Shown one piece after another: positions 5,581 through 34,474 of a stretch of 64,000 nucleotides of DNA. Position 1 is the stretch's first letter; each line of letters starts with the position of its first letter. The stretch covers positions 1 through 64,000 of the forward strand of contig JBFMAX010000003.1 in NCBI GenBank assembly GCA_040755395.1. The letters run 5' to 3'. Made by a program: the position numbers and the translations under genes. A model generated the notes under the pieces. The model searched no databases. It saw only the letters and a program-made list of their open reading frames with translations, and was not told the DNA's origin. Source of the stretch: Nitrospirota bacterium (GTDB lineage: Bacteria > Nitrospirota > Nitrospiria > Nitrospirales > Nitrospiraceae).

Positions 5581-8500
5581 ATGCTTACAAACCTACACAC
5601 AACTTTTCAGTTTGGATCCTATCAGCAGGATCGTGACAGCTTTATCAAGCGCCAAGAAAATGAACCGTTAGCAGTGAGAAAATTGGTTTCCCAATTAAGT
5701 CCTCATTATGACGGTCAAAGGAGCATTGCTATCGGGTATGGATTGGATTTGCTGACCAACTCCATCGCAACAATCAATGACCTCTTGGTTCGGGCAGGGC
5801 TTCCGCAACTTCAACTCAGTCAACATGACATTGGTTTGATTACTGTTGCCCGTGCAATCGTTGCAAGGACTCCTAAAAATACCCCGTTGCCGCCCCAAGA
5901 TATCCAGGCTCTCAATACAATCGCCAAGCAGTTCAATCTTAAGTTGCCTAATGAGCCAAAGGCCGAGGAAATCTTAAAGCTGGACCTCGATGATCGAGAA
6001 GTTAGGTTCGATGCTTTCCTGTCACAGAATGGATTAACGCTTGCGCAGTCTCAGGAACGCATTGCGTTAATGTCCTTGTATTTCAACAGTCGTGGGACGT
6101 TCCAGAACAACGTCGAAGTCAAAAACAACTTGCTGGGGCCGAAGCTTTTGGCTGCCTTAGAAGCTGACGACCGCGCGGAAGCGTGGTACCAAGTCCGTTA
6201 CCAATCAAACGCCGATGGCGTGCATGCAAACCGGCGTTATCGGGAAGCCGATGTATTTGGATTGTATGGCTCGGGACCGATCTCCGATTTGGAGGCCAAG
6301 GAAGTTCTGGAGATGTTCACAAGGTACCGGGACTTGTCGTTTGAGGAAGGGGGCATCCGGGCTTACGAGGCCCGCTTTCGGCCAAGCAATCCCATAGCAG
6401 GAAGCCAAGGGATCGATTTCCAGATTCTTCAAGCCCGGGAGCATCTGATCGCCAGCTTTGGAGAAGGATATTCCAGCGACGGCGAGGTCCTGGTCGGAGA
6501 AAACGCCCTCATCCCCGGCGATCGGCTTGCGGGAACGGACAATAACGATCTGATCTTCGGACAGCAGGGTCATGATGAATTAAAAGGGGGTAGTGGCGAT
6601 GACGTGCTCTACGGCGAAGAGGGCACCGACCAGCTCATCGGCGGCACTGGCGATGATCTGTTACTGGGCGGCCAGGGCTATGACACGTACGTCTACAGCA
6701 GCGGGGATGGACAAGACACGATTACCGATAGCGATGGGTTTGGGAGCGTGCTGTACGATGGCCGGCAGCTCCAGGGGGGAGTGAAGAAACAAGGGCAGTC
6801 GGTCTACAAAAGTCTCGATAACCAATTCACCTATTCCTGGGATGGCACCGCAGGTCACGACCTCACGATCACTGGTCCCGGTGGCACGTTGACCGTGAAG
6901 GCGTTCACCAATGGTCAGCTCGGCATCGCGCTCACGAATGAAGTCTCCTACGTGAACGGCCTGCCGATCCGTACAGAGTTCACGCAAGAAGTCCCCGATC
7001 CGGAGAATCCTGGTCAAACGATTACCGTGCCGATCTTCGACGACAACAATAACAGCTATACGATCACTGGCGCGACGAACAACGTCGTCCATGCGCTCGG
7101 CGGCCACGACACGGTAATCAGCGATGTCGGCAACGACGAACTGTATGGCGACGATGGCAACGATACGCTGCAGGGCAAGGGCGGCCATGATCGGCTCTAT
7201 GGCGGGCTGGGCCAGGACACGCTCTACGGGCAAGACGGGGACGATACGCTGGAAGGCGGAGAGGGCCCGGATGAAGTGCAAGGTAACCACGGGGCGGATG
7301 TGCTTATCGGTGGAGCCGGGGATGACCTCCTGACCGGCGATGCGGTGACGGACTCGTCATGGAATCCTGCCCAGGCCGGCAACGATTTCCTGGATGGCGG
7401 GGATGGGACAGACATCCTGACGGGCGATGGGGGGAGCGATGTCCTGACCGGCGGCAGCGGCAGCGACACGCTCTGGGGCGACTATGGCGGAATCCTCAAC
7501 ATTTATGGTGGGTTCACGCTCGCGCTCCTGAGTCAAGGCGGCAATGATACGCTCGACGGTGGTGCGGGCGTGGATGCGCTCGCGGGCGGACCTGGTAGCG
7601 ACCTTCTCATGGGTGGGGAAGACGACGATTTTCTGATCGGCGATTACCCGGTGCTGGATTCGACTCTGCCCATCGAAGCCCGGGCCACGATCGGTGGGAA
7701 CGATTTCCTCACCGGCGATGCCGGCAACGATCAGTTGGCGGGTGGGGTCGGTGACGACGTGCTGCTGGGCGGGGCTGGCGACGATCAACTCCACGGAGAG
7801 GATTTCTTCGGGATCACCACGGCATTCGGCGATGACGTTCTGGATGGCGGCGCCGGAGCGGATCAGCTTTTCGGAGATGAGGGCGACGATGTCCTCATGG
7901 GCGGGTCTGAGAACGACAAGTTGTATGGGGAGGATGCTACGAACGCGTTCTTGACAGGCAACGATAGGCTACAGGGGGAAGCCGGCGCGGACGAACTGTA
8001 TGGCGGTGGTGGAAACGATGTGCTCGACGGCGGCGAGGGTAATGATGTCCTGTCCGGGGATGATCTGTATTTCTTCAACGGCTTCACCAACGTCTTTACA
8101 GTCTCTATGGCTCCGGGCAATGACCAATTGGACGGCGGGGTCGGCGAAGACCGGCTCTATGGCGGGGGCTTGGACGATGAATTGACCGGTGGAGCCGATG
8201 ATGATGTCTTGGTCGGCGATGACTTCATTGATGGGGACGAGTTCATTTACTCCACCCAAAGCGGGAACGATACCCTCGACGGCGGCGAGGGCGAAGACCA
8301 ACTCTACGGCGGAGCAGGGGATGATGTGCTCGCAGGCGGCTTGGGTAACGATAGCCTGGTAGGGGACCGCGGCATCCTGCCAGGCAACGTCAACCCGGAT
8401 GATCTGTTGGTCGGTGGGAACGATACCCTGGACGGTGGCGAAGGCCACGATACGCTCGATGGCGGGGTCGGGGCTGATGTGCTGCTTGGAGATGTCGGCA

Positions 8501-11500
8501 ATGACACGCTTCTCGGCGGAGCCGGCAACGACCAGCTTGAAGGGGGAGATGGAAATGACGTTCTGAGTGGCGACGGCGGTGGATTCGGGTTTGGCGTGGG
8601 GGATGACATCTTGCTGGGAGGCGCTGGCCTCGATGACCTTTTCGGAGGGGAAGGCGCTGATGTGCTCGATGGCGGCTCCGACCGCGACCGCCTCCGAGGG
8701 TCCGGAGGCAGCGACACGTATGTCTTTGGATTGGGGTACGGGCAGGACACGATCGAGGACATTGCCGACGGCAATGTGAACACGGTGCAGATGGCCGTCG
8801 GCATCCTACCCGGCGACGTCACCGTCACGCGGCGCCAAGACAAGACTGACTTCCCGAACGTGGATGATCTGGTGCTGACGATCACCGGCACCGGCGACCA
8901 GCTCACGATCAAAGCGGTGGAAGGCCTCTTCGCCGCCCCGTTCTTCCGGGTGACGTTTGCCGACGGCACGGTCTGGGACGCGAACACGCTGCAAGACAAG
9001 GCCCGGCAGGTGACTGGCACGGACGCCGCCACGACACTCCGCGACTTTTCGGACACGGACGATGTGTTGGCCGGGTTGGGCGGAGGCGACGTACTGCTGG
9101 CCGGAGCCGGCAATGACACGCTCGACGGGGGCACGGGCAAGGATCGGCTTTACGGCGGTGGGGGCGATGACGGCTATGTCTTCGCGGCGGGCAGCGGGCA
9201 GGACACCGTGTTTGACCGGACCGGGGGGCAAGACCGTGTCAGCCTGGCGACCGGCATCGCGCCCGGGGACGTCACCGTATTGCGGAGCGGGAATCATCTC
9301 ACCCTGAATCTCCTGAGCACGGGTGATCGGTTGACCCTCCGGTACTTCTCTCTCGATCCGGCCTACCAAGTGGAGCAGGTGGAGTTTGCCGGTGGCACGG
9401 TCTGGGATACCGCCGCCTTGCTGGCACAGGTCAGCGGGGAACTGCTGGTCGGAACCGACGGGGATGACACGCTGACGGCCACCCCGGCCGCTCGGTTTCT
9501 GGCTGGCGGCGCGGGCGACGATACCTACATCGTGAGCGATCCGTCCGACCGGGCGTTGGAGGCGGAAGGCGAGGGCACAGACACCGTGCAGAGTTCGATC
9601 AGCTACACGCTCGGCGGGCACGTCGAGCATCTCACGCTGACCGGCACGGCGGACATCAACGGGACCGGAAACGCGTTGGACAACGTCCTGGTCGGCAACA
9701 GCGGCCTGAATGTGCTGGCCGGTGGACAGGGTAACGACACCTATGTGGTCGGGCTCGGGGACACCGTGGTCGAGGCGGCGGGCGAGGGCATCGACACGGT
9801 GCAGACGGACCTGAGTTACACGTTAGGCGCCAACGTCGAGAACTTGACCTTGACAGGGAGCGGGGCGACAGCCGGCACCGGCAACGTACTCGACAACGTG
9901 CTGACGGGGAACAGTGCCGCGAACCTCCTGACCGGCGGGGCCGGCAACGATACCTATGTCATCGGCGCCGAAGATACCGTGGTCGAGCTCGTCAACGAAG
10001 GGATCGACACGGTGCAAACGGATGTGAGCTACACGCTCGGGGTCAATCTGGAGCGTCTGATTCTGACGGGCAATGCGGCCATCGACGGCACCGGCAACTT
10101 ACATGACAATGTGCTCGTCGGCAATAGCGCGGCGAACGTGCTGACCGGCGGACTGGGCAACGATACCTATGTCATCGGCGCCGGCGACACGGTGGTGGAG
10201 AATCCCGGCGAGGGAACCGACACGGTCCAGACGGATCTGAGCTACAGCCTCGGGGCCAACATGGAGAACCTGACCTTGACCGGCAGTGCCGCCGTCGATG
10301 GAACCGGGAATGAGCTCGACAACGTCCTGACCGGCAATAGCGGAGCAAATGTGCTGGATGGCGGCCTGGGTGCCGATACGCTGGCCGGTGGCGCGGGAGA
10401 TGACACCTATATCATCGACCAGGCCGGCGACACGGTGATCGAGGCCGCCGATGAAGGAACGGACACAGCCCAGAGTTCGATCAGTTACATCTTGGGTGCC
10501 AATGTCGAGCACCTGACACTGACCGGCACGGCAGACATTGATGGAGCCGGGAACGAACTGGACAACGTGCTGGCGGGCAACAGCGGGGCGAACGTGCTCA
10601 CCGGGGGTGTGGGGAACGACACCTATGTGATTGGGACGGGCGACACGGTGGTTGAGCAGGCGGACGAAGGCAGTGACACGGTCGTGACAGATCAGAGCTA
10701 CACCCTGGGTGCCAACGTCGAGAATCTGACCCTCACAGGCACGGCCAACCTCGACGGCACCGGCAACGCCCTGGATAACGTGCTCACGGGCAACAGTGGT
10801 GAGAACGTCCTCACTGGCGGAGCCGGCAACGACACGTATGTGTTTGGGCGAGGGTCTGGCAGCGACACGGTCATCGACAATGATGCCACGGCCGGAAATT
10901 TCGATGCTATCGAGTTCGGCGAGGATGTGGCTCCAACAGATGTGGCCGTCTCGCGCAGCGGCGATGATCTGGTGCTGAGCATCAACGGCACGACCGATCA
11001 ACTCACCATCCAGTCGTTCTTCCTGGCGTCGGCCAATCAGGTTGAATTCTTCACGTTCGCCGACGGGACTGTCTGGGATGTGGCGGCAGTGACTGACCGA
11101 TTGCCGAAAACACTCACGGGAACGGCCGGTCAGGACACGCTGTATGGCGGAGGTAGTTCGGATGTGCTCGATGGAATGGCAGGGAACGACAACCTGTACG
11201 GCTATGACGGCAACGATACTTACCTGTTCGGCCCGGGTGCCGGCGAGGACACCCTGCTGGACTATGACGTGACGGCAGGGAATCTGGATCTTATCCAGAT
11301 GGCGGCCGGTGTGCTACCCAGCGCAGTGTTCGTGTCCCGCAATGTTGACGATCTGGTGTTGCGCCTTGACGGCACCACGGATCAGTTGACGGTTCAGTCG
11401 TTTTTCCTCGATCCGGCGTACCGGGTTGAACGGGTCTCCTTCTCGGACGGGACGCAGTGGGATGAAGAGGCGATCCGCGATCAGATGCGCCAGAAATTCA

Positions 11501-11763
11501 CCATGCCGGCCGGGCAAAATACGCTGGTCAACAGAAAAGGGGTCGGTCAACAGAAAAGGGGTCGGGAGTCTTTGTTGGCGATAAGGGCTCAGCCATCTCG
11601 AAGACATTGCGATCGCATGTGCCTCCAGTTCAACACACCGCCACCACCGCCAAACTTGCGCACGATGATCGCATTTAAGACTCCCGACCCCTTTTCTTTT
11701 CACCGACCCCTTTTCTTTTCATTCTGCACTAGCCAGGCCGACCTGCGTCAAGATTCGCGTTAA
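5581..11763 (+). CDS. Giant lysozyme-like RTX protein with a repeat-derived C-terminus
   Basis: The product is 2060 residues. Residues 1 to about 300 form a lysozyme-like domain (E26, D44, IGYGLDLL). From about 313 come many RTX nonapeptides (GGxGxDxLxG), with dense arrays at about 313-390 and 500-1060. HCBP-related segments (GDVTVTRR, LTITGTGDQLTIKA) lie near 1070-1140, 1210-1280, 1770-1835 and 1900-1965. Residues about 1300-1755 hold six near-tandem 71-residue units (GNDTYVIGxGDTVVE, SYTLGANVENLTLTG). There is no Sec signal, so type I secretion with calcium folding outside is expected. From about residue 1980 the protein is encoded by an interspersed repeat (11530-11720), which replaces the native C-terminus and probably its secretion signal. 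No ABC exporter is nearby. Confidence 0.88.
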   Translation: MLTNLHTTFQFGSYQQDRDSFIKRQENEPLAVRKLVSQLSPHYDGQRSIAIGYGLDLLTNSIATINDLLVRAGLPQLQLSQHDIGLITVARAIVARTPKNTPLPPQDIQALNTIAKQFNLKLPNEPKAEEILKLDLDDREVRFDAFLSQNGLTLAQSQERIALMSLYFNSRGTFQNNVEVKNNLLGPKLLAALEADDRAEAWYQVRYQSNADGVHANRRYREADVFGLYGSGPISDLEAKEVLEMFTRYRDLSFEEGGIRAYEARFRPSNPIAGSQGIDFQILQAREHLIASFGEGYSSDGEVLVGENALIPGDRLAGTDNNDLIFGQQGHDELKGGSGDDVLYGEEGTDQLIGGTGDDLLLGGQGYDTYVYSSGDGQDTITDSDGFGSVLYDGRQLQGGVKKQGQSVYKSLDNQFTYSWDGTAGHDLTITGPGGTLTVKAFTNGQLGIALTNEVSYVNGLPIRTEFTQEVPDPENPGQTITVPIFDDNNNSYTITGATNNVVHALGGHDTVISDVGNDELYGDDGNDTLQGKGGHDRLYGGLGQDTLYGQDGDDTLEGGEGPDEVQGNHGADVLIGGAGDDLLTGDAVTDSSWNPAQAGNDFLDGGDGTDILTGDGGSDVLTGGSGSDTLWGDYGGILNIYGGFTLALLSQGGNDTLDGGAGVDALAGGPGSDLLMGGEDDDFLIGDYPVLDSTLPIEARATIGGNDFLTGDAGNDQLAGGVGDDVLLGGAGDDQLHGEDFFGITTAFGDDVLDGGAGADQLFGDEGDDVLMGGSENDKLYGEDATNAFLTGNDRLQGEAGADELYGGGGNDVLDGGEGNDVLSGDDLYFFNGFTNVFTVSMAPGNDQLDGGVGEDRLYGGGLDDELTGGADDDVLVGDDFIDGDEFIYSTQSGNDTLDGGEGEDQLYGGAGDDVLAGGLGNDSLVGDRGILPGNVNPDDLLVGGNDTLDGGEGHDTLDGGVGADVLLGDVGNDTLLGGAGNDQLEGGDGNDVLSGDGGGFGFGVGDDILLGGAGLDDLFGGEGADVLDGGSDRDRLRGSGGSDTYVFGLGYGQDTIEDIADGNVNTVQMAVGILPGDVTVTRRQDKTDFPNVDDLVLTITGTGDQLTIKAVEGLFAAPFFRVTFADGTVWDANTLQDKARQVTGTDAATTLRDFSDTDDVLAGLGGGDVLLAGAGNDTLDGGTGKDRLYGGGGDDGYVFAAGSGQDTVFDRTGGQDRVSLATGIAPGDVTVLRSGNHLTLNLLSTGDRLTLRYFSLDPAYQVEQVEFAGGTVWDTAALLAQVSGELLVGTDGDDTLTATPAARFLAGGAGDDTYIVSDPSDRALEAEGEGTDTVQSSISYTLGGHVEHLTLTGTADINGTGNALDNVLVGNSGLNVLAGGQGNDTYVVGLGDTVVEAAGEGIDTVQTDLSYTLGANVENLTLTGSGATAGTGNVLDNVLTGNSAANLLTGGAGNDTYVIGAEDTVVELVNEGIDTVQTDVSYTLGVNLERLILTGNAAIDGTGNLHDNVLVGNSAANVLTGGLGNDTYVIGAGDTVVENPGEGTDTVQTDLSYSLGANMENLTLTGSAAVDGTGNELDNVLTGNSGANVLDGGLGADTLAGGAGDDTYIIDQAGDTVIEAADEGTDTAQSSISYILGANVEHLTLTGTADIDGAGNELDNVLAGNSGANVLTGGVGNDTYVIGTGDTVVEQADEGSDTVVTDQSYTLGANVENLTLTGTANLDGTGNALDNVLTGNSGENVLTGGAGNDTYVFGRGSGSDTVIDNDATAGNFDAIEFGEDVAPTDVAVSRSGDDLVLSINGTTDQLTIQSFFLASANQVEFFTFADGTVWDVAAVTDRLPKTLTGTAGQDTLYGGGSSDVLDGMAGNDNLYGYDGNDTYLFGPGAGEDTLLDYDVTAGNLDLIQMAAGVLPSAVFVSRNVDDLVLRLDGTTDQLTVQSFFLDPAYRVERVSFSDGTQWDEEAIRDQMRQKFTMPAGQNTLVNRKGVGQQKRGRESLLAIRAQPSRRHCDRMCLQFNTPPPPPNLRTMIAFKTPDPFSFHRPLFFSFCTSQADLRQDSR
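11530..11720 (+). repeat. Interspersed repeat with inverted ends, copy 1 (MITE-like)
   Basis: A 149-bp core (11551-11699) starts CAGAAAAGGGGTCGGGAGTC and ends with its near inverse GACTCCCGACCCCTTTTC. It matches 13716-13864 with one visible mismatch. Extra partial ends are stacked outside it on both sides (AAAAGGGGTCGG at 11535; CCGACCCCTTTTC at 11703), which suggests repeated insertion into itself. It carries no convincing gene and forms the 3' end of the giant RTX reading frame. Its size and inverted ends fit a non-autonomous element moved in trans, perhaps by a Y1-type enzyme (inference). Confidence 0.85.
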
Positions 11764-13954: not shown

Positions 13955-16690
13955 TCAACGACTCTGTCCCACGCCGATTCTCGCGTCCACGATGCGGCAG
14001 CCTTGGCCCGGCGATAGCGCGAACACGGGGTTCAGGTCGAGTTCGACGATCTCCGGCACCTCTTCCGCCAGCCTGGAGACGCGCAGCAGCGTCTCTTCGA
14101 GGGCCGGCACGTCGGCGGGAGGATGGCCGCGGTAGCCGGTCAGGAGCCGATAGCCTTTGATCTCCCGGATCATGTCGGCGGCGTCGCGGTCCGTCAGCGG
14201 TGTCACCCGGAAACGGACGTCGCTCAGGATTTCGACATATACGCCCCCCAACCCGAACGCGACGAGCGGACCGAACGAGGGATCATGGGTGACCCCGATC
14301 ATCACCTCGACGCCGCCCGCGATCATCGGTTGCACCACGACTCCGTCCATCGCACCTAGCTGCCGCATCTGCGCGAGCCGGGACCGGATCGCCTCGAACG
14401 CCTCGCGGACCTGTGTCTCGGACGCAAGGTTCAAGCGGACTCCGCCGGCTTCCGTCTTATGGACAATCCGGTGCGATGCGAGCTTCACCGCGACGGGAAA
14501 TCCGACCCGGCGGGCCAGAGCGGCCGCCTCGTCCGCGGTCCGAGCCAGGCCGCCGTCGGGAAGGGGAAGTCCCGCCGCCGTGAGGACGGCTCTGGTTTCC
14601 TCGACGGTCAGCCACCCGGGTCCACGCTGAGCCAGGGCCTTTTTGCAGGTCTCTTTGGCCGTCGTCAGATCGAGGTCGTCGAAATCCGGAACCATCCCGA
14701 GCGGCTGCGCGCGCCAGTCGGCGTAGGCGGCCATCTTGCTCAACACCCGGGCCGGCATCTCCGGCAGGGGGTACGTCGGAATCCGTTCGCCGGGAAGGGC
14801 GAAGGTCCGATCCTGGTCGCCTTCCGCCATCCAGCAAATCAGGACCGGCTTCGCTGCGGCTCCGGCGGTCCGGCCGGCTTCGATGCCCGATCGGATGCCC
14901 TCCGCGATCCCGGACGTGTCGGTCGCCGTGACGGAAATGTACAGCACGATCAACGCATCGACCTCCTCCGCCTGCATGACCGTCTCGATGGCCTTGGCAT
15001 ATTGCGCCGGCGTGGCGGAGGCGATGAGATCGACCGGATTTTTGATGGCTGCGGCGGGCGGGAGGAACGATGCGAGCGCGGCCTTTGTTTGAGCGGACAG
15101 TTCCGGCACGAGCAGGCCGGCGGCTTCGCAGGCGTCGGTGCAAAGAATGGCCGGACCGCCCGCGTTGGTGATGAGACCCACGCGCCGTCCCGGCGGGAGC
15201 GGCTGAGCGGACAGGCCGGCGGCCAGCGCAAACAGCTCCTCCAGCGTCTCGGCCCGGATCACGCCGGTCTGGCGGAACAGCGCCTCGACGGCCGTGTCGC
15301 TGGCCGCCAGCGCGGCGGTGTGCGAACCGGCGGCCCGCCGGCCCGAGGGGGTTCGCCCGGCCTTCACGGCCACGATCGGTTTGCGCCGGCTGACGCGGCG
15401 CGCGATGCGTGCGAAGCGGCGCGGGTTGCCGAAGGACTCCAGATACAACAAGATCACGTCCGTCGCCGGGTCCTCCTCCCAATATTGCAGGAGGTCGTTG
15501 CCTGACACGTCCGCCTTGTTGCCGACGCTGACGAAGGTGGAGATGCCTATCTGAAGCCGGTGCGCGGCGCCGAGAAGGGCTAGCCCCAGGGCGCCGCTTT
15601 GCGAGGACATGGCGATCCGCCCGGGCGGCGGGAACAATGCGGTGAACGTCGCATTGAGCCGCACGGCCGGATCGGCATTCACCAGGCCGAAACAGTTCGG
15701 CCCGACCATGCGCATCCCGTAATGGCGGACCTTCTCCACCAGACGCCGTTGCAGCTCACGGCCCTCGTCGTTGACTTCGGCGAAGCCGGCCGTGATCACG
15801 ACCAGCGCCCGCACCCCACGCGCGGCGCAGTCGTCCACGACGGGCAGCACCGCGTCGCGCGGCACCACGATCACGGCCAGATCGACCGGTTCGGGAATCG
15901 CCCGGACCGACGGATACACGCGCAACCCGGCCAGTTCGGTCGCATGCGGATTGACGGGATAGATGCGGCCAGTGAAGCCGCTCGTGCGCAGCGCTTCCAG
16001 CAACCGGAATCCGACGCTCCGAGGATCGCGCGAGGCGCCGACGACCGCCACGGCCTGCGGCCGGAAGAACGGCCGGAGCGATGCGACCGTGGCGAGGCGA
16101 TCCCGCATCTCGGAGCGGTTCACGCTGGCCTCCGTCGGAACGAGCGAGAGTTCGACCTCGATGTCGCCGCCCGCCAAACTTTCGTGGACCTCGAAGCCTG
16201 ATTCGCGGAACACTTCCCGCATGGCCAGGTTGTCGGCGTGGGTGACGGCCCACAGCCGGCCGAAGCCGTGGCGAATCGCGAGTAAGGCCAACCGTTCCAG
16301 CAGCAGCGTGCCGAGACCCTTGCCGTGAAAGGCGTCGTCGACGGCCAGGGCGACCTCGGCGGTGCGCTCGTCCCTGGCCAGGTAGGAGCCGGCGGCGATG
16401 ATGCGTAACGCGCCTTCCCAGACACGGGTCACGATCAGGGTCAATTGGGATGTGGGATGTGCGGCGTCGCAGAGTGCGGCGATGACGTCCTCCGGCGGCG
16501 TCGTTTCGGAGAAGAACCGGTGGCGCCTGGCTTCCGGTGACAGCCGGTCCACGAAATCACGGAGAGCCGGCGCGTCTTCCGGCCGGGCGAGGCGGACGGC
16601 GGCTGTCGTCCCGTCGCGGAGGATCAAACGGCCGTGCTCCGGCGCCTCCTGGGTGGGCGACGAAATAAACAAGGGTCGGACAGGCTTCAT
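13955..16690 (-). CDS. GNAT acetyltransferase / NDP-forming acyl-CoA synthetase fusion
   Basis: The product is 911 residues. An N-terminal GNAT domain (~15-190; acetyl-CoA loop near DAFHGKGLGTLLLERL) is followed by a CoA-binding Rossmann domain (~205-300, AVVGASRDPRSVGFRLL). Next comes a succinyl-CoA-ligase-like region with SQSGALG and the phosphohistidine segment GSHTAALA, then a C-terminal ATP-grasp domain (~690-900; PVAVKLASHRIVHKTEAGGV, VEVMIGVTHDPSFGPLV). This is the Pat/acyl-CoA synthetase family: protein lysine acetylation linked to an ADP-forming acetyl-CoA synthetase. The N-terminal GNAT is the reverse of the E. coli PatZ order. A natural target is the AMP-forming acetyl-CoA synthetase at 30377-32137 (inference). 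Confidence 0.9.
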   Translation of the reverse strand: MKPVRPLFISSPTQEAPEHGRLILRDGTTAAVRLARPEDAPALRDFVDRLSPEARRHRFFSETTPPEDVIAALCDAAHPTSQLTLIVTRVWEGALRIIAAGSYLARDERTAEVALAVDDAFHGKGLGTLLLERLALLAIRHGFGRLWAVTHADNLAMREVFRESGFEVHESLAGGDIEVELSLVPTEASVNRSEMRDRLATVASLRPFFRPQAVAVVGASRDPRSVGFRLLEALRTSGFTGRIYPVNPHATELAGLRVYPSVRAIPEPVDLAVIVVPRDAVLPVVDDCAARGVRALVVITAGFAEVNDEGRELQRRLVEKVRHYGMRMVGPNCFGLVNADPAVRLNATFTALFPPPGRIAMSSQSGALGLALLGAAHRLQIGISTFVSVGNKADVSGNDLLQYWEEDPATDVILLYLESFGNPRRFARIARRVSRRKPIVAVKAGRTPSGRRAAGSHTAALAASDTAVEALFRQTGVIRAETLEELFALAAGLSAQPLPPGRRVGLITNAGGPAILCTDACEAAGLLVPELSAQTKAALASFLPPAAAIKNPVDLIASATPAQYAKAIETVMQAEEVDALIVLYISVTATDTSGIAEGIRSGIEAGRTAGAAAKPVLICWMAEGDQDRTFALPGERIPTYPLPEMPARVLSKMAAYADWRAQPLGMVPDFDDLDLTTAKETCKKALAQRGPGWLTVEETRAVLTAAGLPLPDGGLARTADEAAALARRVGFPVAVKLASHRIVHKTEAGGVRLNLASETQVREAFEAIRSRLAQMRQLGAMDGVVVQPMIAGGVEVMIGVTHDPSFGPLVAFGLGGVYVEILSDVRFRVTPLTDRDAADMIREIKGYRLLTGYRGHPPADVPALEETLLRVSRLAEEVPEIVELDLNPVFALSPGQGCRIVDARIGVGQSR

Positions 16691-20110: not shown

Positions 20111-20290
20111 TTAACGCACGACGAGGACGGAACGGATCGAACGGTGGGTGGCGGAGTGCGAGACGCTTCCCAAGAGGAAACGGTCGGCCCCCGTTCGCCC
20201 GTGAGACCCGACGATCAGCAGATCGCACGCATTGCCGTGTTCGGCGAGCATGCCGGCCGGGTCTCCGTTCAGAATCTGCGTGCTGACCAT
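20111..20290 (-). pseudogene. Universal stress protein, C-terminal fragment
   Basis: A 59-codon frame from an ATG at 20290 encodes the C-terminal half of a UspA domain: ACDLLIVGSHGRTGADRFLL, then GSVSHSATHRSIRSVLVVR, with the G-x2-G-x9-GS ATP-binding pattern. The N-terminal half is missing and no ribosome site is evident. It is a remnant among intact genes and may no longer be translated. Confidence 0.75.
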
Positions 20291-20429: not shown

Positions 20430-20873
20430 CTATGCCGCCGGAATTTCGAGGAGATACAGTTCACCCTTCATCCCCGGATGCAGATCGCAGCGGAACGAAT
20501 AGTTGCCGGCGCGATCGGGCGTGAAGCGGATCACCAGGGTCTTCCCCGGATCCACGTAGACCCCTTCCATCCCTCTCCCGTATGCGGCGATGCCTTCGCC
20601 CTCCACGTGCAGCGCCAGTTGCGCGAGCACCGGCGCCGTAAACCCGTGCCGGACGATATCCTGATTGCGAAGGATGATCACCGTGGGGATGCCGTGACGG
20701 ACCGGCGCCGGCTGGGTCAGGAGAAACTCATAATTGCGAATCGTCAGATCGATGCGTTGCTCTTGGGCGGTGCGGCGCTCCGGCTGGTCGCCGGCGAATC
20801 CGACTCCGGAGGCGAGCATCATGAGCGCAATTGAAACGGTGCCGCGAAGCCAGGGACTCATTCGACCTGCCAT
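20430..20873 (-). CDS. Secreted cupredoxin-domain protein
   Basis: This encodes 147 residues: a signal peptide (TVSIALMMLASGVGFAG), then a single cupredoxin fold. Type 1 copper ligands are visible as His in IVRHGFTAP and Cys-His-Met in FRCDLHPGMKGELY. The spacing fits plastocyanin or nitrosocyanin-like domains. It is probably an exported electron carrier or copper-binding protein. It is 22 nt downstream of the HAD-ATPase gene and upstream of a cytochrome c, so a periplasmic redox role is likely. Confidence 0.87.
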   Translation of the reverse strand: MAGRMSPWLRGTVSIALMMLASGVGFAGDQPERRTAQEQRIDLTIRNYEFLLTQPAPVRHGIPTVIILRNQDIVRHGFTAPVLAQLALHVEGEGIAAYGRGMEGVYVDPGKTLVIRFTPDRAGNYSFRCDLHPGMKGELYLLEIPAA

Positions 20874-20895: not shown

Positions 20896-22623
20896 TCAAC
20901 GCAGAGCGGTCAGTTCCTCATAGTGCGACGCCACGACGCGAAGGAGCGCCTGCCGCAATTCCTCGCCCCGGTATTGGCGATTGGCCACTTTTCGCAGTCG
21001 CGCGGCCAGCGTGCCGTCTCCGAGCGTCCCTTCCGCCCAGCGGACGAAATCCTGCCGGCGGTCATGGTACTCCAGGCTGCCGATCGGAAGGCTCGGGATG
21101 AGCTGCAGAAGTTCATAGAGACTGGCGGCTTCTTGGCCGATCGCTCCCTGTTCGTCCCGGAACCAGAAGCGCTTGCCCGCGGGCAGCGGCGTATCCAGAT
21201 ACTTGTAGAGGTGGCGGATATGGGGGACCCGCCGGATCGCGGGACGCATCCGGACCATCTGGCCGCCGCACAGGAGCGCGTGCCCCATCGGAATCTCGTC
21301 GAGGCGGGTCTCCGTCAGCCCGCAGATGCGGCAATGCTTGCGGAGGCCGTGGGCCGCCTCCGGGTCCGACACGCGGGTGAACAGGCAGTGGTGTAAGGCC
21401 TCCAGCACAGGGGCGCTGAGACGATCCGGCCTGTAGGAGACGAAGGCCCACCCTCCGGCCGCCAGCAGCGGGAGGACGGCCGCAGTCACCTCGCCGCCGC
21501 TGAAGGCGAATTGTTGCGCTTCGTCCAACACGATCCAATGCGGGCGGTACCGTCGCTCGCGGACCGGGCGGAGCGCGCGGAGCAACTCGGTGACGTAGCC
21601 GCTTCGCAAGGGGACCGGATACTGGCTGAGATCCAACGTCAGGGAGACCCCGCCCTCGTCAAGCAACGAGACGACGGCCGAGGGAGGCGGCAGACTGGCG
21701 CGGTCCCCGCTCACGGATACGAAGCGCGGCAAGACCCGCAGCCCGCGGAAGTCGCCCTCGGGATCGATCAGCAGGACCTGGTACTCCTCATGGTGCAAGC
21801 CCTCGGCGATCAGGCCGACCATCCAGGACTTCCCGGTTCCTGAGTCGCCGAACACCCCGAGATTCCGTCCGGCCAGACGGGAGGCCGGAAGGGTCACGGT
21901 TGATCCGGCCTCGGTCTGGCCGAGCAGGATCGGGCGTTCCCGCTTGAGCGGAATGTCCAGGAACTGGCCGGCCAGCGGATAGCGATCCAGGATTTCCCGC
22001 ACGCCTTGAGGGCCCGGCGCCTCGGCGACCACATCCGCCAGTTCCCGCACCGCGGGAACCGCGTCCGCGACGGCGACCGCGACTTCGGCCAGGGTCAGCA
22101 TGGACAGGTCGTTTTCCGCGTCGCCGAAAGCCGCCAGGTTGCGGGGCGAAAAGCCGCACAGCGCGAGCAGACGTTCCAGCCCGGACCCTTTGGTGGCGCC
22201 GGGCGGCAAGACCATGACGGCGCCCTTGTTGTATTCGATGGAGGCGCTGCCGCCGTAGGCGCCGGCCACCTGCCAGAGCGTCTGATCGTGCGGCGTCCAG
22301 GTGGCGGCGATGGCCAATCCCCGCTCAAACGGAATGCCGCGCTCCTCCAAGGCCTTCACAAGGTTCGCATCCAGTTGACCGAACGGCAGATACGTTTCGC
22401 CGCTGCCGGTGTGAGTCAGCACCGCGCCGTTCTCCCAGACGATGCCCATGAACAACTCGCCGAAACGGCCCAACGCAACCGTCTCGAAGCGCCGGCCGGT
22501 GACCAAGAACAGCGCATGCCCCATGGCGCGGCAGCGTTCGAGCGCCGTCACCAACTCGGGAGGGACGACCCCGTCTATGGCGAGCGTCCCGTCGAAGTCG
22601 AAAGCCATCACGCGGCGATACAT
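20896..22623 (-). CDS. HAD hydrolase fused to a HerA/DUF87-like ATPase
   Basis: The product is 575 residues from the ATG at 22623; the longer frame reads intergenic repeat and is rejected. Residues 1-225 are a Cof-type HAD phosphatase: AFDFDGTLA (nucleophile D9, D11), LVTGR, and GSGLERLLALC with FGDAENDLSML. Residues ~240-575 are a P-loop ATPase: Walker A GDSGTGKSW near 260, LLIDPEGDF, and Walker B HWIVLDEAQQF near 360, similar to HerA/DUF87 motors. C-terminal parts (CGGQMVRMRPA) may bind a partner. The fusion implies a phosphatase coupled to an ATP-driven switch; the substrate is unknown. No strong ribosome site was seen. Confidence 0.85.
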   Translation of the reverse strand: MYRRVMAFDFDGTLAIDGVVPPELVTALERCRAMGHALFLVTGRRFETVALGRFGELFMGIVWENGAVLTHTGSGETYLPFGQLDANLVKALEERGIPFERGLAIAATWTPHDQTLWQVAGAYGGSASIEYNKGAVMVLPPGATKGSGLERLLALCGFSPRNLAAFGDAENDLSMLTLAEVAVAVADAVPAVRELADVVAEAPGPQGVREILDRYPLAGQFLDIPLKRERPILLGQTEAGSTVTLPASRLAGRNLGVFGDSGTGKSWMVGLIAEGLHHEEYQVLLIDPEGDFRGLRVLPRFVSVSGDRASLPPPSAVVSLLDEGGVSLTLDLSQYPVPLRSGYVTELLRALRPVRERRYRPHWIVLDEAQQFAFSGGEVTAAVLPLLAAGGWAFVSYRPDRLSAPVLEALHHCLFTRVSDPEAAHGLRKHCRICGLTETRLDEIPMGHALLCGGQMVRMRPAIRRVPHIRHLYKYLDTPLPAGKRFWFRDEQGAIGQEAASLYELLQLIPSLPIGSLEYHDRRQDFVRWAEGTLGDGTLAARLRKVANRQYRGEELRQALLRVVASHYEELTALR

Positions 22624-22635
22624 GGCACCCAAGGG

Positions 22636-22745
22636 GTGAATGTGGAATGTGGAATGCGAAATGAGAAATGTTGAAGAGCCGGCCCTTCCGACATGTGAGC
22701 ATTCCTCATTCCAATTCCTCATTCCTCATTTCGAATTCCTCATTT
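22636..22745. repeat. GAATG(T/A)GG-type repeat forming an imperfect hairpin
   Basis: The left arm has GAATGTGGAATGTGGAATGC and GAAATGAGAAATG. The right arm has the inverse (CATTCCTCATTCCAATTCC, then CATTCCTCATTTCG). The two arms could pair into a long imperfect stem around GAGCCGGCCCTTCC. It lies between the CBS and HAD-ATPase genes. Confidence 0.8.
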
Positions 22746-22747
22746 CA

Positions 22748-23215
22748 TCAGATTCCCACCAGCACCCGGTGCGCGCTGATGGCTCGCAGGGTCCGCATCA
22801 CGTCCTCGTAGGACAGCTCGGGCACCTTCTTGCCCTTCGTTTCCTCCGCATTCAACACCAGATCATTCATCGCCAGCATACCCTGGAGGACACCGTCCTC
22901 ATCGACCACCGGCAGCCGGCGGACTTTCTCCCGTTTCATGAGATCGAGCGCGGTATGGACATCGTCGGTGGCGCGGCAGGTGAACGCCTTTCCGGAGACC
23001 GTCTCCCACACCGTGATGTCGGAGGCCGGTTTGTTTCTGGTCGCCACGGCCATGCAAATGTCACGGTCGGTGATGACCCCAAGGACCTTCCCTTCGACAT
23101 TGAGAACCGGCAAGATGCCGCAATCGCTGTCCCACATCATCTTGGCGGCCTCGGCCAGATTCGTATTGGGGCCGCAGCACTGCACGTCGCGAGTCATGAT
23201 GTCTTGAACTTTCAT
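22748..23215 (-). CDS. Tandem CBS-domain protein
   Basis: This encodes 155 residues, starting at the ATG at 23215 behind GGAGAGGAGG. Two CBS motifs make one Bateman module: MKVQDIMTRDVQCCGPNTNL to DSDCGILPVLN, GVITDRDICMAVATR, then TCRATDDVHTALDLMKREKV with RRLPVVDEDGVLQGMLAMNDL. Such stand-alone pairs bind adenine nucleotides and act as energy sensors; the partner is unknown. It is followed by the HAD-ATPase gene and preceded by the BCAM0308-family gene. Confidence 0.93.
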   Translation of the reverse strand: MKVQDIMTRDVQCCGPNTNLAEAAKMMWDSDCGILPVLNVEGKVLGVITDRDICMAVATRNKPASDITVWETVSGKAFTCRATDDVHTALDLMKREKVRRLPVVDEDGVLQGMLAMNDLVLNAEETKGKKVPELSYEDVMRTLRAISAHRVLVGI

Positions 23216-23293: not shown

Positions 23294-23794
23294 TCATCGT
23301 TCCCACTTCACGCGAACGAACTGCTCGCCTTCATCGTAATGGACCCAGAACTCGCCTTGATAGGCATGGTGCAGCATCTCCCCGATGCGCCGCGGCAGGT
23401 GGGTGTCGGTGGTCGAGACGACCAGCGTATCGTTCTGCTGTTCGATCGCCATGATGCGCGAGAGGGGATGCTCGGCCTTTTCCTTCGCCTCGGTGTTGTG
23501 GACGACTCCGAGGATCTCCTCCCGATGGTCGGCCAGAAACGGACCGGCGACGGTGAGCAGCCCCTTCGGGTACTTGTCGCGAATGCGATGGCAGGCCGGG
23601 CACAGGGCCTCGTGCGCTCCTACAGGTCGCGGGACCCATGTCCACCGGCCCCTGTGGAACACCGCGCCGCACTCGGGACACACGGTAGGTTCCTTGAGCT
23701 TGCCCGGCAACTTATATGTGTCGTGCTGGTATTCCTGGACGGTCCGATCGCGCCGCACTCCCAGTCCCGCGGGGGTCTTGGTCTTCGGCGACAT
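23294..23794 (-). CDS. BCAM0308-family zinc-ribbon protein
   Basis: This encodes 166 residues from the ATG at 23794 (GGAAAGGA upstream). A zinc ribbon with PTVCPECGAVFHRGRW and ALCPACHRIRDKYP is followed by an alpha/beta region (HREEILGVVHNTEAKEKAEHP, NDTLVVSTTDTHLPRRIGEML) ending FVRVKWER. The pattern fits the family named after Burkholderia cenocepacia BCAM0308, a gene in a low-oxygen-induced cluster. The molecular role is unknown. Its neighbours (CBS, Hsp20, phosphoribosyltransferase) match such stress clusters. Confidence 0.85.
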   Translation of the reverse strand: MSPKTKTPAGLGVRRDRTVQEYQHDTYKLPGKLKEPTVCPECGAVFHRGRWTWVPRPVGAHEALCPACHRIRDKYPKGLLTVAGPFLADHREEILGVVHNTEAKEKAEHPLSRIMAIEQQNDTLVVSTTDTHLPRRIGEMLHHAYQGEFWVHYDEGEQFVRVKWER

Positions 23795-23965: not shown

Positions 23966-24655
23966 TCACGGAGGCGGCCCCTGCCGGTGTGTGCGCAGTG
24001 CCTCTTCCGCCAAGTCCAGGTATCGAATGACGTCCGCATCGTCGACTTGGGCGAAGTCGGCATAATGGCTTCCGACCGCGAAAAACGGCTCCGGCGCCTG
24101 CAAGACGACCAACTCGTCGACCAATCGTCTGACTTCCTGGAGCGTCTCGCGCGGCCCGACCGGAACGGCTGCGATCAACCGGCGCGGTTTCAGGTCTCGT
24201 ATCGCATCCAGCGAGGCGAAGAACGTCGCGCCGGTCGCAATGCCGTCGTCCACGAGCAACACCGTCCGATCGGTGAGCGTCGGCTGTTTCCGTCCTTGCC
24301 GGTAGAGCGCCTGCCGTCTGGCGATCTCTTCCTGCTGCGCCCGGATCAGCTTCTCCAGCTCCTCCTGCTTGAGCGCGGACAGCGCGACCGCCTCCCGGTT
24401 GAGATACAACGAGCCGGTCTCGCTGATCGCGCCGAGGGCGAACTCGGGATTGTCCGGTGCCCCGATTTTCCTGGTGATGAAGACGTCCAGGGGGAGGCGG
24501 AGCGCGAGGCTCATCTGGTAGCCGACCGCCACTCCGCCCCGAGGCAGAGCGAGAATCAGGGCTGTGGGGTCGTCTCGGTACGACGTGAGCCGGGCCGCCA
24601 GGAGACGACCGGCTTCTTCGCGATCATGGAACATGGTGTCGATCCTGATCTCCAT
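23966..24655 (-). CDS. Phosphoribosyltransferase-family protein
   Basis: This encodes 229 residues. The PRPP-binding loop is clear (VLLVDDGIATGATFFASL), with the N-terminal ALPRGGVAVGYQMSLALRLP and the KIGAPDNPEFALGAI block typical of the stand-alone group annotated as putative phosphoribosyl transferases in stress and dormancy clusters. Starts at 24655 or 24634 are both possible. The 5' end overlaps the small membrane protein gene by 32 nt, so the two are translated together. The substrate base is unknown. Confidence 0.9.
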   Translation of the reverse strand: MEIRIDTMFHDREEAGRLLAARLTSYRDDPTALILALPRGGVAVGYQMSLALRLPLDVFITRKIGAPDNPEFALGAISETGSLYLNREAVALSALKQEELEKLIRAQQEEIARRQALYRQGRKQPTLTDRTVLLVDDGIATGATFFASLDAIRDLKPRRLIAAVPVGPRETLQEVRRLVDELVVLQAPEPFFAVGSHYADFAQVDDADVIRYLDLAEEALRTHRQGPPP

Positions 24656-24947: not shown

Positions 24948-25421
24948 TCAGGCGACCTTCACCTCGATGGCCTTGGGCTTCGCCTTCTCGGACTTGGGCA
25001 AATGCACCTTCAGCACGCCGTCCTTGTACTCGGCGCTGACTTTGGATCCGTCGGCGTCCTCCGGCAGGGTAAAGCTCCGCATGAAGCTCCCGTAGGCCCG
25101 CTCCACCCGATGATACTTCTTGCCCTTTTCTTCCTTTTCGTACTTGCGTTCTCCCGAGATCGACAGGACGTTGTCTTGAATGGTCAACTTCACGTCCTCT
25201 TTTTTCACTTCCGGAAGCTCCGCTTTGATCACGTACTCCTTCTCGTCCTCCGTGATGTCCACGAGCGGCGACCATTCCGCCACCGTCATGGCTTCCTTCT
25301 CGCCCTCGGATCGCACCGGCACCCGGCCGAAGAACGTCGCCAGGCGTTTCTCCATTTCTTCCAACTCCTTGAACGGATCCCAGCGCGTCTTAAACGGTTC
25401 CCAACGTGTAATGGCGTTCAT
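24948..25421 (-). CDS. Hsp20/alpha-crystallin small heat shock protein
   Basis: This encodes 157 residues. The alpha-crystallin domain spans about 47-140: [60 protein letters not shown] and the hallmark [14 protein letters not shown]. There is an N-terminal helix [16 protein letters not shown] and a C-terminal basic tail; a GGAGGG ribosome site precedes the ATG. It is an ATP-independent holdase in the cytoplasm. It is grouped with CBS, BCAM0308 and phosphoribosyltransferase genes. Confidence 0.95.
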
Positions 25422-25911: not shown

Positions 25912-26589
25912 CTAAGTCAGAAAGGCTTTCCGCAGCCGAACCAGGAACTCGTCGACGAGGCTCAGATCGGATCGGTGTGTACAGTGCGCCAGCCGGCGCC
26001 GAGCCTCCTGGGTCCAGTACTCGCCCAGGTCAATGACCTCTCCGACGCGGTAGTTGCCCGCTTTGATCTTCCGGATGGTTTCGCCGATCGGGGTTTCGGC
26101 GATGCGCACGCTGAACGTCTCCCGCTCCAGCAGTTCGCAGAGGTTGAACAAGACACGGAGGTAGGCGGCGGCGTATTTCTCCGGCCGCTCGTCCTTTTTG
26201 TCCAGCATCTTCTTGCGTTGATTCTCGCAGTAACCGGTAAACGCGTCGTAGGCGGCCTGCGGAGACCAGACGTGGGGAAAGAGCCGCCGGAGTTCCGTCC
26301 CCCAGTCATCCATCGCCACGACCGGAGCCACGAAGGTCTCGAGGATCAGCGGATGGCATTGCGTGCCGAGGAGCAGGAACTGGCCCACCTCCCAGGCCGT
26401 TTCGTCGGCCTCCTCCTTCCTCATGCGCGCGCCCTGGTACTTGAATCCCAGGCGGAACATCTCCGCGGTCGGCATCACGAACACGCTCCGATAGTCGGCA
26501 TCGCTGCCCGGCGCGGCCAGCCCGTGGGCCTGGGATCCGACGAGGACTTTGAGAATCGTCCGGTCGGCGCCCGCTCTTTCCGTTGCCAT
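25912..26589 (-). CDS. Nucleotidyltransferase-superfamily protein (COG3541/YcgL type)
   Basis: This encodes 225 residues. The pol-beta nucleotidyltransferase signature is visible near the N-terminus: VGSQAHGLAAPGSDADYRSV, where GS and DxD supply the catalytic acids. A helical C-terminal half follows (FTGYCENQRKKMLDKKDERP, AAYLRVLFNLCELLERE). It may transfer a nucleotide to an unknown acceptor. It follows the acyl carrier protein gene with a 1-nt gap, so it is probably co-translated with it. Confidence 0.8.
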   Translation of the reverse strand: MATERAGADRTILKVLVGSQAHGLAAPGSDADYRSVFVMPTAEMFRLGFKYQGARMRKEEADETAWEVGQFLLLGTQCHPLILETFVAPVVAMDDWGTELRRLFPHVWSPQAAYDAFTGYCENQRKKMLDKKDERPEKYAAAYLRVLFNLCELLERETFSVRIAETPIGETIRKIKAGNYRVGEVIDLGEYWTQEARRRLAHCTHRSDLSLVDEFLVRLRKAFLT

Positions 26590-33231: not shown

Positions 33232-33375
33232 ATGAAACCGAAAGGCGGCTTCAAGAACATGCCCAAGAGGCAGGCGAGGAAGTTCGCCAAACTCAAGGTC
33301 AAGAACGTCCAGCAACAAATCAAGAAGCAAGCCACCCGGCTGCATGGCGCCAGACCCACGGATGAAAGACGTTGA
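33232..33375 (+). CDS. Highly basic 47-residue peptide overlapping rtcA
   Basis: A very strong GGAGGAGG precedes the ATG at 33232. The product is rich in Lys/Arg/Gln (MKPKGGFKNMPKRQARKFAK, LKVKNVQQQIKKQATRLHGA) and should be a helical, RNA- or DNA-binding peptide. Its stop lies 14 nt inside the start of rtcA, so the two are probably translationally coupled. No family is named. It is short, so support rests on the ribosome site, composition and overlap. Confidence 0.6.
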   Translation: MKPKGGFKNMPKRQARKFAKLKVKNVQQQIKKQATRLHGARPTDERR

Positions 33376-34474
33376 GCAGACCAGCCAGGCTCAGGCCATG
33401 ATCCAAATCGATGGTTCCCGCTATTCCGGCAGCGGCACGATTGTCCGCCAGGCGGTGGCCTTTGCGGCGCTCACCGGGCGGCCCATTCACATCGTCAACG
33501 CACGCGTCCGCCGGCCCAACCCCGGTCTCCGGCCGCAGCACATCCGCGTCGTGGAGGCGATCCGGGAGTTGGTCGGCGGGACAGCCGAAGGCCTGACGGC
33601 GGGGTCGCAAGAACTGTGGTTCCGTCCGGGGCCGCTGAAGGCGCAGCCGCGGTATGTGTGGGATATCGGGACAGCCGGCTCGACCACAATGCTGGGCCTG
33701 GCTCTCATACCGGTGTTGGCGTTTGCTTCCTCGACGGTGTCGGTCGAGTTGCGGGGCGGGCTGTTCCAGGATTTTGCCCCCTCGGTCTTCCACCTTCAAT
33801 ACGTCGTAGCGCCGCTGCTGAAGAAGATGGGGCTGAAGGTCGAGGTGATGATGGAGCGGCCGGGCTATGTGCCGAGAGGAGAGGGCGTTCTGCGCCTGAC
33901 CGTCACGCCGCCGCGGACGCCTCTTCGGAGCCTGACGCTGGAACATGCCGGCGCCGTGAGGCGAATGTGGGGGATCGCGCTCGCCTCGCATTTGGTTGAG
34001 CGGAAGGTCAGCCGGCGGATGGCCGGGGCGGCCAAGCAGGTGTTGGCGCGCGCCGGGTATGACGCGGAGATTGAAGAGCGGGACGACACCACGGCGCTCC
34101 AACCGGGAGCGGCGCTCGCCCTCTTTGCCGACGAGGAAGGCGGGGTCTGTCTGGGGGCGGATCGAGCCGGGGCCCTCAGACGGACCGCCGAGTCGATCGG
34201 AAGACACGCGGCGACGCAGCTTCTGGAGGATTTGAAAACAGGAGCCGCGCTTGACCGGTTCGCCGCGGATCAAGTGGTGCCGTTTGCGGCGCTGGCGGAG
34301 GGAGAGAGTCGGCTCTTGGCGCCGGTTATAACGGACCACCTGGCGACCGGCGCGTGGTTGGTCGAACAATTTCTCGGCGCGAGGGTGAAGATCGACGGGC
34401 GTCTCGTGTGCGTGTCCGGAGTCGGGTTCACGGGGCTTCGCAGCGATCAACAACCGGCGGAGCGTAGCGAATAG
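33362..34474 (+). CDS. rtcA: RNA 3'-terminal phosphate cyclase
   Basis: The product is 370 residues from the ATG at 33362. RtcA motifs are IQIDGSRYSGSGTIVRQAVA, GLRPQHIRVVEAIREL, GTAGSTTMLGLALIPVLAF, RGGLFQDFAPSVFHLQYVV, PGYVPRGEGVL, and the late ITDHLATGAWLVEQFLG block that contains the nucleophilic His. It converts RNA 3'-phosphate ends to 2',3'-cyclic phosphates through an adenylated intermediate. No RtcB or RtcR is visible in the window. It overlaps the basic 47-residue peptide gene. Confidence 0.95.
   Translation: MKDVEQTSQAQAMIQIDGSRYSGSGTIVRQAVAFAALTGRPIHIVNARVRRPNPGLRPQHIRVVEAIRELVGGTAEGLTAGSQELWFRPGPLKAQPRYVWDIGTAGSTTMLGLALIPVLAFASSTVSVELRGGLFQDFAPSVFHLQYVVAPLLKKMGLKVEVMMERPGYVPRGEGVLRLTVTPPRTPLRSLTLEHAGAVRRMWGIALASHLVERKVSRRMAGAAKQVLARAGYDAEIEERDDTTALQPGAALALFADEEGGVCLGADRAGALRRTAESIGRHAATQLLEDLKTGAALDRFAADQVVPFAALAEGESRLLAPVITDHLATGAWLVEQFLGARVKIDGRLVCVSGVGFTGLRSDQQPAERSE

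Follow-up and report, generated by a model that had tools for sequence, protein, structure and literature searches.

HerA-type ATPases are motors that act on nucleic acids in repair and in phage defence, and HerA works with the nuclease NurA. Phosphatases of the HAD-IIB type depend on a catalytic set consisting of DxD, T/S, K and GDxxND. OrfY of Thermoproteus tenax (4cso), a third protein of concern here, presumably comes from a TreT operon. A literature search, which covered the HerA literature in part, found no paper on 4cso or OrfY, on DUF5752, or on a fusion of HAD and HerA domains. In HerA, the residues K154, D176, E356 and R381 have been shown to matter; R381 is the trans arginine finger, and the R381K exchange leads to loss of ATPase activity (PMC4351679).

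The gene described here joins domains resembling these three kinds of protein in one chain. It lies in a stretch of 64,000 nucleotides from a Nitrospirota bacterium (contig JBFMAX010000003.1), which is referred to as the window.

The gene and its three domains

The gene and the parts of its product are as follows.

20896..22623, minus strand: three-domain gene, HAD-IIB / HerA-fold ATPase / OrfY-like module (translation, Pfam, 31 relatives, model)
21979..22623, minus strand: HAD-IIB phosphatase domain, residues 1-215 (Pfam; conservation, n=55; VIA-align Z 26.2 to 1wr8)
22585..22599, minus strand: HAD motif I DFDGT, residues 9-13 (translation; conservation, n=55)
21244..21942, minus strand: HerA-fold ATPase domain, residues 228-460 (DUF87; Z 25.9-26.1 to 4d2i and 9x1m)
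21826..21849, minus strand: Walker A GDSGTGKS, residues 259-266 (translation; conservation)
21520..21534, minus strand: Walker B IVLDE, residues 364-368 (conservation)
20899..21252, minus strand: OrfY/DUF5752 module, residues 458-575 (Pfam; 4cso by profile and by fold; conservation)

The reading frame (20899-22623, minus strand; the interval from 20896 takes in the stop codon) encodes 575 amino acids and has no internal stops. An alternative upstream start at 22722 would give 608 amino acids; the methionine at 22623 is the point from which the relatives align. Part of an inverted repeat, described below, sits between these two candidate starts. The full-length predicted model, built from 32 sequences, has a mean pLDDT of 84.8 and a pTM of 0.71.

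An earlier, sequence-only reading had placed a HAD phosphatase and a P-loop ATPase in one chain at this position, with the motifs DFDGT, GDSGTGKSW and VLDEAQQ intact. The motifs are present as written, and the combination is borne out by Pfam, by the fold matches and by the 31/31 loci described below. A domain search of the 575-residue protein for HAD, DUF87 and HerA matched a HAD-IIB hydrolase and the DUF87/HerA central domain, and also a third domain, DUF5752 (residues 458-575, the OrfY/DUF5752 module), which the sequence-only reading had overlooked and which is the best functional clue.

The HAD domain matches Hydrolase_3 in Pfam (E 7.9e-24; PF08282 at 85.2 bits, above the cut-off of 20.9) and the general HAD-IIB family TIGR01484 (63.8 bits, above 41.8), but stays below the cut-off of the "Cof" subfamily TIGR00099 (87.5 against 137 bits). 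Thus, of the "Cof-type HAD with intact DxD" proposed earlier, HAD-IIB and the DxD aspartates (D9 and D11 of DFDGT) stand, and the Cof label does not. Among the best 25 of 34 NCBIfam families, no equivalog exceeded its cut-off, so that no specific enzyme assignment follows. D9, D11, K145, D168, N171 and D172 are invariant in an alignment of 55 sequences (55/55), and T42 is kept in 54 of them. In the model, residues 2-222 match the HAD protein 1wr8 with Z 26.2 and an rmsd of 2.5 over 218 aligned residues.

The ATPase domain has the fold of HerA. Pfam places the DUF87/HerA central domain at residues 238-296 (E 1.4e-10; 42.1 bits, cut-off 23.2), and two HerA structures match the model: 9x1m over residues 229-463 (Z 26.1, rmsd 2.2, 227 aligned) and 4d2i over residues 229-471 (Z 25.9, rmsd 2.6, 231 aligned). 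These matches remove the doubt, raised with the original proposal, that this might be an unrelated P-loop fold. GDSGTGKSW spans residues 259-267 and IVLDEAQQ residues 364-371; G264-K265-S266, D287 (the acid of DPEGD) and E368 are invariant in 55/55 aligned sequences, and the Walker B position 367 holds D in 49 of them and E in the other six. According to the 4d2i alignment, K265, D287 and E368 are the counterparts of HerA K154, D176 and E356.

Other parts of HerA are missing. Numbered along the same alignment, R381 falls in a short HerA segment that this fusion family lacks, and no substitute arginine finger was found in residues 369-397, where any one position carries a basic residue in at most 12 of the 55 sequences. 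The glutamine of SQRP/TQRP is present in the three HerA-type chains aligned but absent here, position 397 being Y in 31 sequences, V in 22, F in 1 and I in 1. There is no N-terminal HAS barrel: the HAD domain occupies residues 1-215, and the ATPase match begins at residue 229. The domain is therefore called a HerA-fold ATPase rather than HerA. The "DNA-pump-like motor" of the sequence-only reading is weakened in the same way, with its fold retained and its arginine finger, SQRP glutamine and HAS barrel gone. Other basic residues are conserved, namely R355 (54/55) and, near the start of the C-terminal module, R470 and H471 (55/55 each, as is Y475) and K474 (54/55); judging by this conservation, R355 or R470/H471/K474 could be a different arginine finger.

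The C-terminal module matches DUF5752 at residues 495-571 (E 2.1e-6; 27.7 bits, cut-off 23). Modelled alone from 24 sequences (pLDDT 88.1, pTM 0.79), it matches OrfY 4cso of T. tenax with Z 12.4 and an rmsd of 1.9 over 93 aligned residues, the next match having Z 6.1; Foldseek alone gives E 0.029 for the same pair. For a helical domain, a Z of up to about 13 can arise by chance, which makes the evidence from sequence important here. A profile of the 24 C-terminal modules matches 4cso with E 1.9e-7, in two stretches; a free-standing DUF5752 protein of the window's genome matches 4cso with E 2.4e-16; and the family profile (A1) matches free-standing DUF5752 genes via columns of about 493-563. 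In a scan of ten other copies of the fusion for DUF5752, two were over the cut-off and one was slightly below it (21.9 bits). The other seven, all from the second clade, gave no match at E 0.01, the module being recognised in that clade through the family alignment only.

Distribution and age of the fusion

The HAD-HerA-OrfY protein is genuine and widely conserved. Out of 52 pattern matches on genome contigs, 31 loci in other genomes were confirmed by tblastn, and every one of these (31/31) carries the full chain, with best-segment identities of 38-78% and at least 570 query residues matched. These are here called type A: 26 are Nitrospira-type loci (69-78% identity), and five come from Bacteroidota and a deltaproteobacterial MAG (38-43%). 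A second full-length clade with the same layout, type B, is 31-34% identical in Nitrospirota and about 30% identical in plasmid records of Sinorhizobium, Aminobacter, Agrobacterium, Caballeronia, Paraburkholderia, Nonomuraea and Synechococcus. Thus, type B reaches Pseudomonadota, Actinomycetota and Cyanobacteriota besides Nitrospirota. Among the plasmid-record matches, 11/21 cover at least 80%, and the annotated copies are named HAD hydrolases.

Across 147 genomes of the family, type A occurs in 36 and type B in 26, counts that take in split, partial and contig-edge copies and leave out a broken copy (G199), a C-terminal fragment (G348), two ATPase-only matches (G151, G363) and weak HAD-only, ATPase-only or OrfY-only matches. 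Both types occur together in 2 of the 147 genomes (p 0.02, without correction for relatedness), which is suggestive only of the two types avoiding each other.

Trees were built separately for the three parts of the protein, and each contains the split between type A and the rest, with support of 1.0 (HAD), 1.0 (ATPase) and 0.998 (C-terminal part). In one genome (G147, locus L089) the two halves of the fusion are adjacent genes, and for all three parts of this pair the nearest tips are of type B. In Nostoc (C052, locus L069) the HAD part occurs alone; its closest neighbours in the tree are type B and the Synechococcus copy. The fusion is therefore old, and the split forms look secondary.

Gene neighbourhoods

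The following genes flank the fusion in the window.

22751..23215, minus strand: two-CBS-domain protein, immediately upstream (Pfam, on 22751-23209)
23297..23794, minus strand: BCAM0308-family protein (NCBIfam NF040826, E 3.6e-66)
23969..24655, minus strand: phosphoribosyltransferase-domain protein (Pfam)
24951..25421, minus strand: Hsp20 small heat-shock protein (Pfam)
20433..20873, minus strand: cupredoxin-like protein, downstream of the fusion on the same strand (Pfam)

Neighbouring genes were called by codon bias and clustered by BLAST; for RtcB, archease, the TreZ-like protein, the debranching enzyme, Ku and LigD, one representative of each cluster was scanned. Labels first given by eye were later confirmed for BCAM0308, Ku and LigD_N (family search) and for TreT and GlgE (Pfam); those of the CapA and DUF2520-like neighbours are by eye. 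The type A set comprised 33 loci, the window and a broken copy (L105) included, some of them on short contigs.

A CBS protein next to the fusion had already been noticed in the window; Pfam confirms it, and in 15/33 type A loci a same-strand CBS gene immediately precedes the fusion. Other type A neighbours are phosphoribosyltransferase (10/33), Hsp20 (10), BCAM0308 (6), pyruvate-dehydrogenase-like genes (5), RtcB (10), archease (11) and a LigD 3'-phosphoesterase gene (4), the RtcB/archease and LigD-type genes lying on the strand opposite to the fusion in every locus where they were seen. In four of the 33 loci (L022, L024, L101 and L104:7114-12799), the fusion is flanked by HypF and HypC within a run of NiFe hydrogenase and hyp genes on its own strand (Pfam run on L104 only). 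The BCAM0308 family takes its name from a gene in a Burkholderia locus that low oxygen induces; in the available part of its description, no HAD-HerA gene is named (PMC4981469).

Several further features of the window were noted. A 33-nt imperfect inverted repeat (22643-22675 and 22715-22747, 82% complementary) lies between the fusion and CBS genes. It is built of GAATGAGGAATG-like units, for which the window holds six matches with at most one mismatch (0.22 expected by chance), five of the six being in the repeat. An RlaP-type nucleotidyltransferase (25915-26589) and an RNA 3'-phosphate cyclase (33362-34471), parts of an RNA-repair set, lie within 12 kb of the fusion. A universal stress protein gene at 20114-20290 encodes the C-terminal part only (profile positions 84-141 of 141); inspection by eye of the three minus-strand frames immediately upstream revealed no N-terminal half, and the gene is probably a truncated copy. 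Farther away are a 2060-aa protein that carries 12 stretches of RTX calcium-binding repeats and four HCBP-related ones (5581-11763), and a 911-aa protein resembling acyl-CoA synthetases (ATP-grasp, succinyl-CoA-ligase-like), which has a GNAT acetyltransferase at its N-terminus (13958-16690).

Among 19 type B loci of Nitrospirota, six have a TreZ-like gene and six a debranching-enzyme gene, and since all of these belong to one genus they count as one event. Ku occurs in the stretch of 7/19, again all from one genus. In one of the 19 loci (L075), a DUF5752-TreT pair lies 4 kb upstream of the fusion. The plasmid copies have varied surroundings: an annotated trehalose-6-phosphate synthase, amylo-1,6-glucosidase and GT4 near the Aminobacter copy; two GT4 genes beside the Caballeronia fusion, plus CBS; USP, CBS, phosphoketolase and acetate/propionate kinase in Agrobacterium; cytochrome bd, hemerythrin and flavohemoprotein in Paraburkholderia; and cold-shock, iron-transport and FtsZ genes, with no sugar-gene neighbours, in Sinorhizobium. 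The Nonomuraea stretch is unannotated.

The free-standing DUF5752 genes have a more uniform setting. Twelve stretches were fetched and six gene maps viewed; sugar genes adjoin DUF5752 in 6/6, and each of the six has a TreT-like gene (by eye). DUF5752 lies beside TreT and other trehalose or glucan genes in L149:9681-10376, L138, L141, L142, L145 (where Pfam also finds GT20), L147 and L075:1620-3501. The DUF5752 cluster of the window's genome contains, confirmed by Pfam, TreT, GH15, GlgE, an MscS-like channel and GH13 enzymes, together with a GlgC-like gene; TreY-like and TreS-like labels in this cluster were given by eye, Pfam reaching the GH13 level.

Possible functions

The computed folds, the conserved residues, the missing HerA residues, the joint inheritance and the neighbourhoods point, tentatively, to an ATP-controlled, stress-associated small-molecule phosphatase; from them we infer a substrate class, ATP switching, docking and a physiological role. 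The HAD-IIB domain would dephosphorylate a small metabolite, most probably a sugar phosphate or the phosphate of a related compound. The ATPase domain, lacking residues on which HerA depends as a motor, would bind and probably hydrolyse ATP, and this could switch the oligomeric state or conformation of the protein, making phosphatase action dependent on the energy state of the cell. The OrfY-like module may dock the enzyme to, or sense, trehalose/glucan metabolism, and the enzyme would serve the cell when oxygen or energy is low or when it dries out. Neighbours of a low-oxygen or stress kind are CBS, BCAM0308, Hsp20 and, in four loci, hydrogenase genes; type B also has some trehalose/glycogen genes nearby. 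The fusion looks more like an ATP-controlled enzyme of stress metabolism than a DNA pump, and the "energy- or nucleotide-gated switch" of the sequence-only reading was a fair guess. Against this reading count the Ku and LigD neighbours, which fit a DNA role, and the failure of any equivalog among the best 25 of 34 NCBIfam families to reach its cut-off. The same holds for the single genus behind the type B loci with TreZ-like and debranching-enzyme genes, the type A loci in which trehalose/glucan proteins matched only at L105, the independence of type A from GT20 and OtsB, the Sinorhizobium surroundings free of sugar genes, the seven second-clade copies with no DUF5752 match at E 0.01, and the conserved R355 or R470/H471/K474, with which the protein might still act as a motor. 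Possibly, though this is doubtful, a DNA-motor fold lost its motor parts and now serves a metabolic phosphatase as a switch that reads ATP, with OrfY as the tether to trehalose/glucan metabolism; the protein would then be an energy-gated enzyme of low-oxygen and dormancy islands in bacteria of several phyla.

The main rival is a role with nucleic acids: a true HerA-type ring motor pumping nucleic acid, in which the HAD domain serves as an end-processing phosphatase in place of the nuclease. Its strengths are a HerA fold match that spans the whole ATPase domain, conservation of Walker A, D287 and the catalytic E368, and neighbours of DNA and RNA repair (Ku in 7/19 type B loci; the LigD-type gene, RtcB and archease in 4/33, 10/33 and 11/33 type A loci; and, in the window, RlaP with RNA 3'-phosphate cyclase). 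However, the HAS barrel, the arginine finger segment and the SQRP glutamine are all missing, the HAD part resembles HAD-IIB enzymes of small molecules, the RtcB/archease and LigD-type genes always face the other way where seen, and the Ku loci share one genus. A motor is thus unlikely.

A little less probable still is a non-canonical phosphatase of trehalose 6-phosphate, or of a related glycosyl phosphate, in which the HAD domain stands in for OtsB and is kept at the synthase by the OrfY module. The OrfY module and the trehalose clusters speak for this, as do the trehalose-6-phosphate synthase near the Aminobacter copy and the two GT4 genes beside the Caballeronia copy. Sulfolobus acidocaldarius, moreover, has a GT4-like TPS and a non-canonical HAD protein with TPP activity (PMC7688234), and among 14 control genomes its genome alone gave a DUF5752 match. 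On the other side, family searches found neither GT20 nor OtsB in the window's genome, so trehalose 6-phosphate is unlikely as the common substrate, and PF02358 (OtsB) gives no match to the fusion protein at E 0.1. Type A occurs with GT20 in 23/36 genomes and without it in 13/36 (the window's genome included), and OtsB is already present in 22/36; across the 147 genomes, type A has no association with GT20 or OtsB. These genome lists were compiled by hand from tables, GT20 being counted over its family cut-off (102 genomes, G295 and G306 dropped) and OtsB at E 0.001 (97 genomes). A trehalose-6-phosphate phosphatase as the plain answer was rejected on the 13/36 genomes and the missing association. 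Type B occurs with GT20 in 24/26 genomes (Fisher one-sided p 0.003, confounded by genus). Five of the seven genomes with GT20 but without OtsB carry a copy of the fusion, from which nothing is concluded because their assemblies comprise 230-540 contigs. When 12 trehalose/glucan proteins were compared with the 33 type A loci by tblastn, only L105 matched, with TreY- and TreZ-like genes, and its fusion is broken.

A defence role against phages after the manner of Sir2-HerA or DUF4297-HerA, in which the HAD domain would destroy a nucleotide, is very improbable: HerA-fold ATPases do recur in defence, and PADLOC, run on four fusion copies, gave weak matches (Mad8, E 2.2e-8; HerA, E 1.2e-5), but DUF4297-HerA has its effector and HerA on two different proteins, the fusion lacks a HAS barrel, the annotated plasmid loci contain metabolic and stress genes with no defence gene recognised by eye, and no relative was found among viral contigs in 54 pattern matches. 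An assembly or annotation error joining two genes, which the original proposal had allowed for, can be dismissed: the same full-length chain occurs in 31/31 loci confirmed in other genomes, the second clade has it too, and the three domain trees agree; no support for such an artefact was found.

If the ATP-controlled phosphatase reading is true, a HerA fold without its arginine finger on a metabolic-type phosphatase would show how a motor can turn into a metabolic switch. It would also open a way to study DUF5752/OrfY, which occurs near trehalose genes in Nitrospirota and is present in S. acidocaldarius, and to learn how cells couple the use of compatible solutes or storage sugars to their energy state at low oxygen.

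Comparison with known systems

The HAD domain shares its fold and catalytic residues with PH1421 (1wr8), TA0175 (1kyt), BT4131 (1ymq) and YidA (1rkq), at Z 22.5-26.2. Each of those structures is a HAD chain by itself, 225-271 residues long, whereas here the HAD domain is fused to an ATPase and an OrfY module.

With HerA (4d2i, 9x1m) and the HerA of defence complexes (8xau, 8wiv) the fusion has in common the ATPase fold, the Walker A lysine, the D176-like acid and the catalytic glutamate. It differs from them in having no HAS barrel, no R381-type finger and no SQRP glutamine, and in carrying a HAD domain at its N-terminal end and an OrfY module at its C-terminal end. In DUF4297-HerA, the HerA subunit has a HAS domain; in the fusion, HAD takes the place of HAS.

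The DUF5752 profile (208 positions) matches the C-terminal module in either half (16-106 or 131-207), as if it described a tandem pair. Compared with OrfY 4cso, the fusion has one copy, joined to the HAD and ATPase domains. In T. tenax, genes for a glycosyltransferase and a mechanosensitive channel belong to the tpsp operon (PMC3634074), a grouping similar to that of the DUF5752 cluster in the window's genome. TPSP fusions, bifunctional trehalose-6-phosphate synthase/phosphatases described in the same source, are likewise phosphatases fused to a second domain, in which complex formation controls activity; in contrast to TPSP, the fusion has no glycosyltransferase domain, and the partner of its phosphatase is an ATPase.
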